From IMG/VR virus record IMGVR_UViG_3300046169_000105, positions 1 to 36,047 of that record: a stretch of 36,047 bases of DNA, one strand, 5' to 3'. The notes under the pieces are model-generated. The model searched no databases. It saw nothing but the letters and a program-made list of their open reading frames with translations, and had not been told where the DNA came from. Numbering within the stretch: position 1 is the stretch's first letter; each line of letters starts with the position of its first letter. Below are positions 26,198-31,850 of this stretch, in pieces. This DNA comes from a virus. Position numbers and translations under genes: made by a program.

Positions 26198-26226
26198 TTG
26201 ACAAGTGATTTCTAATGTAGTATATT
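26198..26226 (+). promoter_or_regulatory. Sigma70-type promoter TTGACA-N17-TATATT
   Basis: TTGACA at 26198-26203, a 17-nt spacer and TATATT at 26221-26226 form a near-perfect host-type promoter for the rightward genes starting with the MazG-like gene at 26258. The same boxes recur exactly at 35131-35159. Confidence 0.88.
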
Positions 26227-26257: not shown

Positions 26258-26539
26258 ATGAAGAACAGTCCTATAAACAAATTGCAACAACTTATGGTTA
26301 TTACTGCAGAAGAATGTGGCGAGTTGACGCAAAGATGTAGTAAAATTATTCGTAAATATAATGATATTTCTGAAATCGAAGAAGATCAACGTGTAAAACT
26401 TCTTGAAGAACTTGGAGATGTGCAATGTATGATAGAACTAATGGTTGATCACAATATCATAACATATAAAGAATTGGCAGTAAGATCGTGTCATAAGAGA
26501 GAAAAGTTGAAAAAATGGAGTCAGTTGGTAGATGGTTAG
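26258..26539 (+). CDS. MazG-like nucleotide pyrophosphohydrolase, 93 aa
   Basis: The small all-helical protein has the metal-binding pattern of the all-alpha NTP pyrophosphatase superfamily: E18-E19-x-x-E22 in ITAEECGELTQ and E50-E51-x-x-D54 in LLEELGDVQ. Such enzymes hydrolyse nucleoside triphosphates, and in some phages possibly alarmone-like nucleotides, to monophosphates. At 93 aa it is a single-domain version, shorter than cellular MazG. It is the first gene behind a strong promoter, which suits early nucleotide-pool or stress-signal control. The substrate cannot be read. The last 8 nt overlap the next gene. Confidence 0.85.
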   Translation: MKNSPINKLQQLMVITAEECGELTQRCSKIIRKYNDISEIEEDQRVKLLEELGDVQCMIELMVDHNIITYKELAVRSCHKREKLKKWSQLVDG

Positions 26540-26693
26540 GTTAGGAAACTTTAAAACATTAGAAGTTATAGACGATGAGTCCGCCCAGCTTTGGGATGAT
26601 GTGCAGACTGTCTTTCTATCTATTGATGGAGATACGGTAAAGATAATAATAAACCCAGACGAATCTGAGTTCACAGAAGAAATTATAGAATAG
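26532..26693 (+). CDS. Small acidic protein, 53 aa
   Basis: The start ATG at 26532 overlaps the end of the MazG-like gene by 8 nt, and the stop TAG at 26691 forms part of the next gene's ribosome site (TAGGAG). The product begins MVRLGNFKTLEVIDDE and ends FTEEIIE. It is acidic, with probable beta strands (VFLSIDGDTVKIIINPDE). The tight packing and clean overlap support a real gene. I do not recognise the family. Coupling to the pyrophosphohydrolase is likely. Confidence 0.6.
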   Translation: MVRLGNFKTLEVIDDESAQLWDDVQTVFLSIDGDTVKIIINPDESEFTEEIIE

Positions 26694-26702
26694 GAGAAAG
26701 AT

Positions 26703-27284
26703 ATGGCAAATAATGTATACTCAATAGTAAGTCTTCACAGCGGAAATGAAGACGTACACACATGGTTTAAAGAATTGGTTGAAAATCTCAGATATCCAGA
26801 GGATGAACGACCTCAAGAATACGAGCACTACAAACCACTCCACACTACATTCTGGCCAGATGAAGAGGATACAGACACTAGAGGTTGGTACATCGATAAT
26901 ATTGGTGTAAAGTGGTGTCATATACAAGATGCGTATGAAACAGAAATCAATACATGTTCAGCGTGGGGAATTCCACATGACTTTTATGAGAAATTGTCAG
27001 AGGAAGCATCGAAGATAGATGAGAATGTGGTGTTCACCGTCACATATGAAGATGAGATGCCAAACTTCTTCGGCAGTTCAGTATATTACCAAGGAGAACA
27101 GTTTGATTCGTGTGAATGGGATTCGGATGAATATGAAGGCCAGGGCCTCTGTTTTTATTGGGATGAAGATGAAATGGGTGAAGAAGAACCAGAAGATTGG
27201 GAAGCTTCATGGGAAGATATGCACCTTTTGCAACATGAAAATTTACAACAAATGCTTGATGGATTGATTATCGATGAGAATTGA
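26703..27284 (+). CDS. Acidic Api92-like (DUF1281-type) protein, 193 aa
   Basis: GGAG lies 6-9 nt before the ATG. The protein is very acidic, with about 60 Asp or Glu residues. The layout of an N-terminal strand ([12 protein letters not shown]), conserved tryptophans ([11 protein letters not shown]), a central [14 protein letters not shown] and a C-terminal Y-x-G-x-x-F-x-x-C section resembles the ferredoxin-like Api92/DUF1281 family. That family is common in phages and conjugative plasmids and has no firmly known role. The match is by pattern only, so the family name is tentative. The high acidity could mean DNA mimicry, but nothing further supports that. The gene overlaps guaC by 11 nt. Confidence 0.75.
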
Positions 27285-28395
27285 ACCTGATATCAAATTA
27301 GACTATAAGAATGTGTTAATCAGACCTAAACGCTCTACTCTCACTAGTAGAAAAGAGGTTTCTCTTGTGAGACAGTTTAATTACAGAAATTATAACGCAG
27401 AAAACATCTGCCCGCCAGATTTTGAGGGTGTACCTATTATTGCGGCAAACATGGATGGCGTGGGCACATTTGAAATGGCAGATAAACTCGCTGAAGGTGA
27501 GATAATGACATGTCTCAAAAAAACATACACATCATCGGAACTCATTAGTTACTTTGATAGTAAAATGTGGGAGAGAAGAGAATATGTTGCAATGTCTATT
27601 GGTATTTCTGACTCAGATTTAAATAAGTTTAAAACTGTCTATGATAATGTCGGAAAAGAACTTAAATATGTTTGTATTGATGTTGCTAATGGATATACTG
27701 AAAGATTTGTAAACTTTATTCAAGAGTTTAGACTTCTTTATACAGATATTGTAATCATTGCAGGGAATGTTGTTACTGCAGATCAAACACAGGAGTTAAT
27801 TTTAAATGGAGCCGATATTGTTAAAGTGGGTATTGGGCCTGGCAGTGTTTGTACTACTCGTATCAAAACTGGAGTCGGTTATCCCCAACTCTCGGCAGTT
27901 ATTGAATGCGCTGATGCTGCCCATGGTCTTGGTGGGCATATCATTGCTGATGGTGGGTGTACATGCTCTGGTGATGTAGCGAAGGCATTCGCTGGTGGCG
28001 CAGACTTTGTAATGTTGGGTGGTATGCTTGCCGGACATGATGAAGGTGGTGGTGAAGTAATAACTAAAACATATGAATTGAATGAACTCCTTGATGAAGG
28101 AGATGGATGGTATGCTCCAGTTTATGATAAAAAACAGTTTGTGCAGTTCTATGGTATGAGCAGTAAGGCTGCAAATGATAAACACTTTGGTGGACTTAAA
28201 GAATATCGTTCATCGGAAGGTAGAGAAGTCTTAGTACCATATCGTGGAGAGGTGGCAAAGACAATCCAAGATATTCTAGGGGGCATTAGAAGTACTTGTA
28301 CTTACGTGGGCGCAGATGAGTTAAAAAGACTAAATAAATGTACAACATTTGTCATGTGTCATGACACTCACAACAGGATCTATGAAGGGAGTTAA
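27274..28395 (+). CDS. guaC: GMP reductase
   Basis: The protein aligns along its length with the GuaC family (E. coli enzyme 347 aa, here 373 aa), which converts GMP to IMP with NADPH, releasing ammonia. Visible are the N-terminal [17 protein letters not shown], the catalytic loop [11 protein letters not shown] with Cys193, the DGGC and [14 protein letters not shown] phosphate-binding section, the mobile flap FYGMSS and EYRSSEG with the conserved Glu315. An insertion at about residues 263-288 and a short one near residue 45 explain the extra length. Residue 62 is Gly where E. coli has Thr in the ANMDTVGTF motif. All catalytic residues are kept, so it is probably active. In a phage this is an auxiliary metabolic gene for recycling host guanine nucleotides into adenine precursors. 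It overlaps the upstream gene by 11 nt. Confidence 0.96.
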
Positions 28396-28397
28396 AA

Positions 28398-29126
28398 TTG
28401 AACGAGAAACAATTATCCGCAAGACTCGCAAAGATGTCTGCCATCGCATATGACCAACCAAACATTGCCACTGAGAAATATAAGGCATTGGGATATGCAC
28501 AGGTAAAATATATAGACTATCGGGGAGCACAATGTTATGTTGTTTGGAGTACTTCTACTATTGTAGTATGTTTTAGAGGAACAGAACCTTCTCAGTGGAA
28601 TGACGTTAAGGCAGATTTACGAGCTTGGCCAGAGAAAGAAGAAACTGGAAGAGTTCATAAAGGATTTAACACCGAAGTGTCAAAAATTATTGACAGAGTT
28701 GAAATAACCCTACAACAAATGAGGGGCGCAAAAGCTTTGTATGTAACTGGGCATTCTCTTGGTGGTGCAATGGCAACCATCGCGGCAGGAAAATTAGAAC
28801 ATGTAAACTTTCTCTGCACATTTGGTTCTCCTAGAACTGGTTGGGGTCAATATGTAAAGAATATCACATGCCGCCATGTGAGATTTGTAAATAATAATGA
28901 TATCGTTCCATCAGTTCCACCATCATTCTTGATGTATAAACATCATGGAGAATTAATGTATATAAACTATTATGGTAATATTAGAAAGATGTCTTTTTGG
29001 CAGAGAATGAAAGATCAATGGCGAGGCCGTATGATGGCAGTCAAGAAAAAAGCACCATTTGATGGTGTATACGATCATGATATGAAATATTACATCAGAT
29101 ATACAGAAAGAAACGCAAATGATTGA
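28398..29126 (+). CDS. Class 3 lipase (alpha/beta hydrolase), 242 aa
   Basis: The start codon is TTG at 28398, with AGGGAG 8 nt upstream and only 2 nt after the guaC stop. An ATG at 28434 lacks such a site. The protein follows the lipase class 3 plan: VVCFRGTEPSQWNDVKADL (oxyanion region), the elbow TGHSLGGAMA with nucleophile Ser120, FGSPRTG, the acid NNNDIVPSVPP with Asp168 and a final Asp-His-Asp with His227. There is no signal peptide, so it acts in the cytoplasm or leaves only at lysis. Phospholipid or neutral lipid hydrolysis is expected from the family. A role in envelope breakdown or lipid scavenging is inferred; the next gene encodes a membrane protein. Confidence 0.92.
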   Translation: MNEKQLSARLAKMSAIAYDQPNIATEKYKALGYAQVKYIDYRGAQCYVVWSTSTIVVCFRGTEPSQWNDVKADLRAWPEKEETGRVHKGFNTEVSKIIDRVEITLQQMRGAKALYVTGHSLGGAMATIAAGKLEHVNFLCTFGSPRTGWGQYVKNITCRHVRFVNNNDIVPSVPPSFLMYKHHGELMYINYYGNIRKMSFWQRMKDQWRGRMMAVKKKAPFDGVYDHDMKYYIRYTERNAND

Positions 29127-29445
29127 GATGATTTATCAAATGGCATCAGACAGACTATGGATTTATACTGCAATAGTGGGTGCCTTATTTGGTGCAGCAT
29201 TTCTTGCATATTTTCGCTCGACCCATGCCGGTATTTACTTGTACATGAAATTTGATGAATATCTTGATAAAATTAGAGATTATTTTGGATGGACTTGGTT
29301 TAATCAACCAGAGGATGCTTGGAGAAAACAATATCCAAAAATTACTAATAAGATTGATGAACTAGAGAGGCGAATAGCTGAACTGGAAAATCCCAAACCA
29401 CAATGGGATAAACGTCCAAATGAAGCAATAAATGAAAAAGGCTAA
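29119..29445 (+). CDS. Single-pass membrane protein with coiled coil, 108 aa
   Basis: The ATG overlaps the lipase stop by 8 nt. One hydrophobic helix at about residues 13-31 (LWIYTAIVGALFGAAFLAYF) is followed by an amphipathic stretch and a short coiled coil (ITNKIDELERRIAELEN, about 75-91). The size, single helix and coupling to a lipase would suit a spanin- or holin-like lysis helper, or a membrane anchor for the lipase. No family signature proves either. Confidence 0.75.
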   Translation: MIEMIYQMASDRLWIYTAIVGALFGAAFLAYFRSTHAGIYLYMKFDEYLDKIRDYFGWTWFNQPEDAWRKQYPKITNKIDELERRIAELENPKPQWDKRPNEAINEKG

Positions 29446-29450
29446 AATAA

Positions 29451-29477
29451 GGGTTGACAAAAGATTGTCAGCCCTTT
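29451..29477 (+). terminator. Rho-independent terminator overlapping a promoter
   Basis: GGGTTGACA (29451-29459) pairs with TGTCAGCCC (29466-29474) through a 6-nt loop, with one G-U pair in RNA, and TTTATACTTT follows. The hairpin starts 6 nt after the stop of the membrane-protein gene. The 5' arm contains the -35 box of the next promoter, and the U-rich tail leads into its -10 box. Confidence 0.75.
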
Positions 29478-29482
29478 ATACT
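29454..29482 (+). promoter_or_regulatory. Sigma70-type promoter TTGACA-N17-TATACT
   Basis: TTGACA at 29454-29459, a 17-nt spacer and TATACT at 29477-29482. The predicted start lies near 29489, which leaves a short leader before the ATG at 29513 and excludes the upstream in-frame ATGs as starts for this transcript. The spacer is part of the terminator hairpin at 29451. Confidence 0.85.
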
Positions 29483-29512
29483 TTAAGGGTAATGAAAAAG
29501 GAAACGAATCAA

Positions 29513-29734
29513 ATGAAATCAGATGATACCACATTTATTGTGGATGAACATGCCCGAATCAATCCAACAACCTTTCAATCTCAGCATTCCTCTATGGTGC
29601 AGTCTGATATGAAAGCATATGCTTTAAAGGCAGGCTTGTGGCCAAATTCGGATTATAAACGCATTATTCGTAGACATGCAGAAGCGCGTGGTTGGACGCA
29701 AAGGGGATTCACTGGTATGGAGATTATTTATTAA
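29513..29734 (+). CDS. Small unknown protein, 73 aa
   Basis: I choose the ATG at 29513 because AAAAGGAAA lies about 7-9 nt before it and the promoter at 29454 starts transcription near 29489. Longer in-frame starts at 29432 and 29492 are upstream of or at that point. The product (MKSDDTTFIVDEHARINPTT...WTQRGFTGMEIIY) has a basic middle (YKRIIRRHAEARGW) that could touch nucleic acid. No family recognised. It is the only gene between two promoters. Confidence 0.65.
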   Translation: MKSDDTTFIVDEHARINPTTFQSQHSSMVQSDMKAYALKAGLWPNSDYKRIIRRHAEARGWTQRGFTGMEIIY

Positions 29735-29742
29735 ATTAGCCC

Positions 29743-29771
29743 TTGACATTGCCCGAATCATATGTTAAAGT
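29743..29771 (+). promoter_or_regulatory. Sigma70-type promoter TTGACA with weaker -10
   Basis: TTGACA at 29743-29748 and TAAAGT at 29766-29771 with 17-nt spacing. The sequence around the -35 box (AGCCCTTGACATTG, then CCCG) recurs at 30125-30142, so these two promoters are related copies. It stands just before the 109-aa gene, whose ribosome site is AAGGAG. Confidence 0.7.
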
Positions 29772-29794: not shown

Positions 29795-30124
29795 ATGACA
29801 CAAGTTGCAGTAATTCACGCCGCCTTTGGCCAGACCCCTCAGACAGTTGCATTAGTTGAAGTTGATGATACCATGTCAGTTGAAGAACAACTGGAGTATG
29901 CATATCGTTGGACAAATAACGTGATGGGTTCTTGGAGTATCCAATCAGAGTTTTTGTCTAGTGGTAAAAACGGTGACTATAATGAGAACGTAACTGTTAT
30001 GGCACCCCTACCAGTTGATGACCGTGGACAGGCATGGGGTCTCCGTTCTACATCCATGGGAGATCAAATGTTAATTGGTAACACCAAGTATGAGGTTGCA
30101 ATGTGTGGGTTTGAAAAAATTTAA
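29795..30124 (+). CDS. Unknown phage protein, 109 aa
   Basis: Strong start: AAAAAGGAGATATATAATG. The protein (MTQVAVIHAAFGQTPQTVAL...YEVAMCGFEKI) looks alpha/beta with a helix MSVEEQLEYAYRWTNN. It has no signal peptide, membrane segment or known motif. It has its own promoter at 29743 and is followed by another, so it is a single-gene unit and probably well expressed early. I do not recognise the family. Confidence 0.75.
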   Translation: MTQVAVIHAAFGQTPQTVALVEVDDTMSVEEQLEYAYRWTNNVMGSWSIQSEFLSSGKNGDYNENVTVMAPLPVDDRGQAWGLRSTSMGDQMLIGNTKYEVAMCGFEKI

Positions 30125-30128
30125 GCCC

Positions 30129-30157
30129 TTGACATTGACCCGTAGATATGCAATAAT
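30129..30157 (+). promoter_or_regulatory. Sigma70-type promoter TTGACA-N17-AATAAT
   Basis: TTGACA at 30129-30134 and AATAAT at 30152-30157. The -35 surroundings duplicate those at 29737-29755. It would drive the three-gene group 30186-31033. Confidence 0.7.
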
Positions 30158-30185
30158 GAATATGTAATGAGAAAGGTGATTCGAC

Positions 30186-30790: not shown

Positions 30791-31033
30791 TTGTTCACAA
30801 ATGAATTTGAGTTCGATGCGACTATAACAACAGTAATGGACGAAACGGCTGAACATGAAGATGTTCAGCTCATTATATCTGAGGATGTTGTATACATCAG
30901 ACAGTTTAACGACGAAAAGCGTCAAACTACATATGATTTAATCGCAATGACTCCTAAGATGTTTAAGGATATGGTTACTGCATTGAACCAGACTGAAGGC
31001 GTTTTTTCAACTCAATATAAGAAGGCAACCTAG
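30791..31033 (+). CDS. Unknown protein with TTG start, 80 aa
   Basis: The start is TTG at 30791, directly after the TGA of the previous gene and behind TTGGGAGG. The product (MFTNEFEFDATITTV...FSTQYKKAT) looks beta-rich in its first half (DVQLIISEDVVYIRQFND), with a C-terminal helix (TPKMFKDMVTALNQ). Its first residues MFTNEF echo MFTYSD of the previous protein. The 3' end overlaps the convergent protease-like gene by 59 nt. No family recognised. Confidence 0.7.
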   Translation: MFTNEFEFDATITTVMDETAEHEDVQLIISEDVVYIRQFNDEKRQTTYDLIAMTPKMFKDMVTALNQTEGVFSTQYKKAT

Positions 31034-31772
31034 CCCCACTTCCTTGATAATTAAATTCGCCCATATTCCTTAGAACTTCTAAGGTTTTCCTTTGCATGAT
31101 AGCTTGTATTAGCTCTCCATTCCCCTGCATAACTGTGGGGGGAACTGCTTTTTGTTCTAGATATTCAGTATATGTTCTTTCTGGTTTCATAAGAAAGTAT
31201 TCTAAATCCCAAGTATTCACGAACATAATAAATGTGTCTCTATTTGTGTATTGCGCGATCATTTGATATAGTTGTGCTCTGAATCCATTGGCAGCAAAAT
31301 AATATGATTGCCATGCGCCTGTGCTTTGTCCTTGCGAATATATGTCTTGCAATTTCATTTCTCCATCATATTGTGGTAGCCACGGAGCATGAAATGCGAG
31401 AAGTCCACTCACATGATATTCTACGCCACCCAGAAATGCGAGCGCACATGCGGATATACATGCTGCATTCCTCGGCACCCATACATCCACATTCCAGTTA
31501 GAGAATACTGTTCCAACCTTATATGCCTCTGATAACAGGCCGCCTGGCGAATTCATAGATATAATTTTAGTATCTGGATGAGCTGCTAATGCATTGATAA
31601 ATGCTTCAGATAATCCTGCTACAAAAGATCCTTTAAATTGTAACATTGGGCCCCATGGGGTATCTTGTTCATATCTAATATCATATGGATGATTTTCGTG
31701 TGCTGATGTGTTTGTTGTCGTTAGTAGTATTGTTAACGCAAACAAGATAGGAATAATTCTAATTAGTTTCAT
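30975..31772 (-). CDS. Secreted ClpP-fold (COG3904-type) periplasmic serine protease-like protein, 265 aa
   Basis: The start is placed at 31772 (MKLIRIIPILFAL) because AAGGAAAT lies before it and a late-promoter box is 21 nt upstream. The longer ORF from 31832 would begin upstream of that promoter box. Residues 1-24 are a signal peptide ending TNTSA. The mature part has the ClpP/crotonase-fold hallmarks of COG3904-like periplasmic proteins: ISMNSPGGLLSEA (residues 71-83), CISACALAFLGG with candidate nucleophile Ser107, and AFHAP with His128. The partner acid is not evident. It is the only leftward gene in this block and lies divergent to the ExbB-like gene. Cleavage of periplasmic or membrane substrates is inferred; it could also be a non-catalytic fold. 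Confidence 0.87.
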   Translation of the reverse strand: MKLIRIIPILFALTILLTTTNTSAHENHPYDIRYEQDTPWGPMLQFKGSFVAGLSEAFINALAAHPDTKIISMNSPGGLLSEAYKVGTVFSNWNVDVWVPRNAACISACALAFLGGVEYHVSGLLAFHAPWLPQYDGEMKLQDIYSQGQSTGAWQSYYFAANGFRAQLYQMIAQYTNRDTFIMFVNTWDLEYFLMKPERTYTEYLEQKAVPPTVMQGNGELIQAIMQRKTLEVLRNMGEFNYQGSGARLPSYIELKKRLQSGSMQ

Positions 31773-31792
31773 TATATTTCCTTCCAAAGAAA

Positions 31793-31800
31793 TATTTATA
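31793..31800 (-). promoter_or_regulatory. T4-type late promoter box for the periplasmic protease-like gene
   Basis: Exact TATAAATA on the minus strand, 21 nt before the ATG at 31772. It suggests that the secreted protein is made late, with the structural genes, although its neighbours read the other way. Confidence 0.7.
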
Positions 31801-31850
31801 ATAATTATATAAACTAAATAAAAGACACACAAATAGAATTGGAGTATAAT

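Follow-up and report, generated by a model that had tools for sequence, protein, structure and literature searches.

A terminator-like hairpin enclosing the −35 box of the following promoter: a candidate nested terminator-promoter in a T4-like marine phage

A site in a 36-kb virus contig, here called P1, combines a terminator-like hairpin with a sigma-70-type promoter whose −35 box lies in the 5′ arm of the stem. Judged by its sequence and by comparison with relatives, P1 is somewhat better read as a nested terminator-promoter, belonging to a T4-like marine phage and with both functions operating together, than as anything else. The preliminary description had one transcript ending and the next beginning at this one site; comparison strongly supports the promoter half of that proposal and leaves the terminator half plausible. 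P1 would then illustrate how far phages compress regulation, as transcription may both stop and begin within a single stretch of 32 bp.

Results

Layout of the P1 site

The window, by which we mean the whole stretch analysed (36,047 nucleotides), reads AAGGGTTGACAA-AAGA-TTGTCAGCCCTT at 29449–29476, followed by TATACTTTAAGGGTAATGAAAAAGGAAACGAATCAAATG (Table 1). The hairpin with TTGACA in its 5′ arm, the tail leading into TATACT and the spacer of exactly 17 nt between these boxes are present as the preliminary description gave them. Because one pair of the stem is G-U, the dyad is 11/12 symmetric in DNA while the stem of the + strand RNA is complete. The hairpin comes directly after a + strand gene, and the gap between this gene and the next, which encodes a 73-aa protein, is 67 nt, a distance that fits the saving of space proposed earlier.

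Upstream, the + strand genes at 26258–29445 include a MazG-like gene, a GMP reductase and a lipase-like gene. Two further promoters, P2 and P3, precede the next small genes, and a weak hairpin (30107–30128) abuts the −35 box of P3. A longer frame running from 29432 through the hairpin was rejected because the relatives L002, L003 and L020 align from 29513. Further along the window, a + strand frame (30791–31033) and a − strand frame (30975–31832) share 59 bp in a tail-to-tail overlap (30975–31033); the − strand frame has a signal-peptide-like start.

Since a relative of 204 kb (G001) carries the T4-type capsid and portal families (gp23 family, 1.6e-139; T4 portal family, 7.4e-177), we regard the phage group as T4-like; neither family lies within the window fragment. 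No near-identical sequence to the 26.2–36.0 kb interval turned up in the phage collection.

Table 1. Features of P1 and its surroundings, in window coordinates.
Feature	Position	Strand	Basis
Terminator-like hairpin, 12-bp stem and 4-nt loop (core 29451–29474)	29449–29476	+	sequence, scans, folding, terminator score
P1 −35 box TTGACA, within the 5′ arm of the hairpin	29454–29459	+	sequence, promoter scan; invariant in relatives
P1 −10 box TATACT	29477–29482	+	sequence, promoter scan, alignment of relatives
U-rich tail TTTATACTTT, common to the spacer end and the −10 box	29475–29484	+	sequence, terminator score
Predicted transcription start, G of the conserved GTAA	29489	+	family spacing pattern
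Upstream gene, 108 aa, without family match	29119–29445	+	5 nt between its stop codon and the stem core
Downstream gene, 73 aa, unknown function, presumed P1-driven	29513–29734	+	start conserved in L002, L003 and L020
Candidate promoter of the operon 26258–29445, TTGACA-17-TATATT	26198–26226	+	kept in L019
Promoter P2, TTGACA-17-TAAAGT, without strong hairpin	29743–29771	+	promoter scan, family pattern
Promoter P3, TTGACA (30129–30134) and AATAAT (30152–30157), with the weak hairpin at 30107–30128	30107–30157	+	promoter scan

The P1 promoter and its conservation

A promoter scan of 27–32 kb placed P1 joint first, with a score of 11/12. The same region contains 21 promoter-like sites against 18.7 (sd 4.9) in shuffled sequences, so the consensus match by itself proves little. 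Two related contigs, L003 and L020, encode the downstream protein with 62% and 53% identity, respectively, and their alignment with the window keeps TTGACA, the 17-nt spacer, a −10 box of the TATANT type, GTAA 6 nt further on and the AAAGGA ribosome site. The arrangement TTGACA-17-TANNNT-6-GTAA is kept in relatives ahead of the same 73-aa gene and recurs across the phage family. When we searched with a 39-bp composite pattern, TTGACA-N16-18-NANNNT-N5-7-GTAA, each of six family contigs yielded 3–7 copies, compared with 0–1 for the reversed pattern used as control. The family spacing of 6 nt from the −10 box to GTAA places the predicted start at G29489, in agreement with the preliminary description, which had expected a start near that nucleotide. 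With its −35 and −10 boxes, 17-nt spacer and start region conserved across relatives, P1 is very likely a genuine sigma-70-type promoter.

The same-species contig L002/L047 carries an identical hairpin. L003 lacks it, although the promoter is present there, and L020 retains a weak 6-bp remnant, TTGACA...TGTCAG, that has no U tail, again with the promoter kept. The retention of the promoter where the hairpin is lost or degraded suggests that the promoter is the constrained part and that the strong stem is particular to the P1 lineage. The P1 hairpin is single-copy; promoter cassettes are repeated near-identically in the relatives G006 and G001.

Two variations were observed within the family. 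In L003 the −35 box of the following promoter, TTGACA, contains the TGA with which the upstream gene stops (L003:3972-3974). Another family promoter (L233:1494-1520) has a hairpin over its −35 box (AGCCCTTGACAAAAGGGCT) that lacks a U tail.

The hairpin as a terminator

Folded as + strand RNA, the 12-bp hairpin alone gives −16.6 kcal/mol and the 61 nt around P1 give −17.6 kcal/mol (z = −4.2), a value equalled by 0/200 shuffles. The core (−14.1 kcal/mol) is followed directly 3′ by the U-rich tract UUUAUACUUU, the stem-plus-tract form of an intrinsic terminator. P1 ranked first in a terminator scan, which found 10 terminator-like sites where shuffled sequences gave 2.7 (sd 1.4). By a d'Aubenton-Carafa-type score, computed for all hairpins with a U-rich tail on either strand of the whole window, P1 reached 15.0 and was the top candidate, with the runner-up at 3.8. 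Three RB49 terminators that lie ahead of early promoters score 24–55 by the same measure, which makes the P1 hairpin moderate, not strong, and its tail is interrupted and weaker than those of classical terminators.

A gap of 5 nt separates the stop codon of the upstream gene (29443–29445) from the GGG of the stem core. The efficiency of an E. coli terminator positioned 5 bp after a stop codon fell from ~90% to <10%, because the ribosome prevents folding (PMC4824070). With the hairpin unconserved and the stop codon this close, we consider that the P1 hairpin probably terminates transcription, but leakily. By analogy with the E. coli case, termination is likely to be translation-dependent and would act mainly when upstream translation is weak or uncoupled. 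The earlier label of a good intrinsic terminator survives as regards rank within the window, and must be softened in view of the moderate score, the interrupted U tail, the loss or decay of the hairpin in relatives and the nearby stop codon. An Rfam search gave no match, making a catalogued riboregulator unlikely.

The same stop codon, broken tail and lack of conservation would also suit a real promoter accompanied by a hairpin that does not terminate and serves at most as an end or stability element of the upstream mRNA, or is neutral. We think this unlikely, as P1 has the top terminator score of the window and the nested form recurs in other phages with perfect U4–U6 tails (see below).

Relation to promoter-early stem-loops

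Composite promoter-terminator motifs of T4-like phages, called PeSLs, were reportedly described by Arbiol et al. in 2010 and by Comeau et al. in 2014. As far as these promoter-early stem-loops can be judged from their citation in PMC4503421, P1 resembles them: it too comes from a T4-like phage, as the close relative contig G001 indicates, and pairs an early-type sigma-70 promoter with a terminator-like stem-loop in the short space that separates small genes. The terminators found in RB49, in contrast, end 13–17 nt before the early −35 box, whereas the P1 stem includes the −35 box and its tail runs into the −10 box. In L017 a terminator lies 22–40 nt before the −35 box of an early promoter. These cases form a series of overlap, from RB49 and L017 (before the −35 box) through P3 (abutting it) to P1 (including it), and on this basis P1 looks like a maximal-overlap variant of the PeSL motifs.

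RB49 (L290) also has early promoters, near 42355, 39130, 36985, 3201 and 2832, whose −10 box forms the centre of an inverted repeat (for example, GGGAGTATGCTATAATACTCCC).

Recurrence in other phages and bacteria

We searched 2.9 million viral contigs with the stem pattern GGGTTGACAN{3,8}TGTCARCCC, using a scrambled stem of equal composition as the control. The pattern matched 36 loci against 7 for the scrambled stem, a count inflated by multi-copy genomes and operator-like perfect palindromes. In this U-independent set, a −10-like hexamer (at least 4/6 matches) stood 16–18 nt downstream at 13/27 non-redundant sites, where the average at other spacings predicts 2.4; the scrambled stem gave 0/9. 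A second pattern, GGGGTTGACAN{0,4}TCAACCCCTTTT, included the U tail and left out the −10 box. It yielded GGGGTTGACA..TCAACCCC-TTTT hairpins at 10 viral loci, all ten with a −10-like hexamer at 16–18 nt; removal of near-duplicates left 5/5 against 0.7 expected, these recurrence counts being small and deduplicated by similarity only. An initial scan of the collection, with the −10 box within the pattern, was dominated by cyanophage gp55 promoters and was set aside for enrichment because such a pattern presupposes a promoter. Such nesting is clearly more than an isolated accident.

Eight of the U-tailed viral hairpins were measured; they have terminator scores of 24–48 and lie 5–22 nt after an open frame. 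The leader of one U-tailed case, L350, is like that of the window family. Nested hairpin promoters of unrelated phages (L295, L299, L307, L342-L350; Bp8p-C, Bobb, phiAGATE) share two features with P1, a GGG-led stem whose 5′ arm contains TTGACA and, 16–18 nt downstream, a −10-like box; several have perfect U4–U6 tails, making them better terminators than P1.

Among bacterial chromosomes, intrinsic terminators with TTGACA in the stem have a P1-like stem sequence and a U tail but, unlike P1, mostly lack a −10 box at the right distance, which was found for 8/39 non-redundant hairpins against 3.9 expected. As similar bacterial hairpins are mostly plain terminators, the fusion is, in this sample, mainly a phage feature. 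A few Eubacterium/Lachnospiraceae contigs, such as L360, L414 and L390, are clear exceptions and have nested terminator-promoters much like that of the window, for example GGGTTGACATAATTGTGTCAACCCTTTATAAT.

Two groups of phages showed dyads of another kind. Cyanophage relatives of T4 (L029-L075, for example L050:8106-8134) have a conserved palindrome, TTGACA-N4-TGTCAAGCC, within a TATAAT promoter that seems to lie immediately before the gp55 late-sigma gene (compare NC_021559 near 25.2–25.3 kb). With its fixed 16-bp dyad and no U tail, this palindrome resembles an operator. Bacillus pumilus phages Bp8p-C, Bobb and phiAGATE (L291, L300, L308, L315, L316) have hairpins of the (GGG)TTGACANNNNTGTCAGCCC type, most of them followed by TTAYACT at promoter distance. 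They differ from P1 in being present in 3–6 copies per genome and in their U-poor tails, which suggest operators.

A dyad over the −35 box is a classical repressor position, and P1 could likewise be a real promoter at which a dimeric repressor binds the inverted repeat TTGACA-N6-TGTCAG in double-stranded DNA and blocks the −35 box, leaving the RNA fold as a by-product. The similar dyads of the cyanophage gp55 and B. pumilus phage promoters, conserved or repeated without good U tails, point this way, as does the survival of TTGACA...TGTCAG in L020. In the close relatives, however, the dyad occurs once or never per contig and is missing from L003; it is neither found at several promoters nor conserved with a fixed half-site spacing, which is N6 at P1 and N7 in L020. 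Symmetry is broken in the DNA where the RNA still pairs through G-U, and a repressor site would leave the U-rich tail and the gene-end position unexplained. We consider an operator at P1 decidedly unlikely, and a regulon operator in this phage family was rejected on account of its copy number (one or none per genome) and spacing. That the P1 promoter match arose by chance and the site is only a terminator would suit the shuffle-level count of promoter-like matches in the region, but is highly improbable given that the promoter and start region follow a family-wide pattern and persist in L003 and L020 despite a missing or decayed hairpin.

Proposed mechanism

Under the favoured reading of P1 as a nested terminator-promoter, a host sigma-70-type polymerase would use TTGACA-17-TATACT, start at G29489 and express the 73-aa gene at 29513. 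A polymerase arriving from the 26258–29445 operon would make the RNA hairpin, with the transcribed −35 box as its 5′ arm, then meet the U-rich stretch formed by the spacer end and the −10 box and be released at ~29480–29482. If the behaviour of the E. coli terminator carries over, a ribosome at the stop codon would often block the hairpin, so that termination would be incomplete, reaching its maximum when translation of the upstream gene is poor. The design would thereby pack two signals into the intergenic gap.

A broader proposal, which we offer tentatively, is that nested terminator-promoters, with the −35 box as the terminator 5′ arm and the U tract as spacer or −10 box, are a recurrent, independently evolved phage device and act as translation-dependent valves. 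The valve reading derives from the close stop codon: a well-translated upstream gene would allow read-through, and otherwise the transcript would end and the next promoter take over. Through their recurrence in unrelated phages, such sites provide natural parts in which one site lends itself to the study of termination, initiation, promoter occlusion and ribosome coupling. They may also offer compact insulators for synthetic operons.

A separate motif, CGAATCA/TGATTCG (a GANTC site), recurs in the window at 29505–29511, 29754–29760 and 30177–30183, and also in L232-L259. It lies in the spacers of family promoters or just ahead of start codons and may be a regulator or methylation site.
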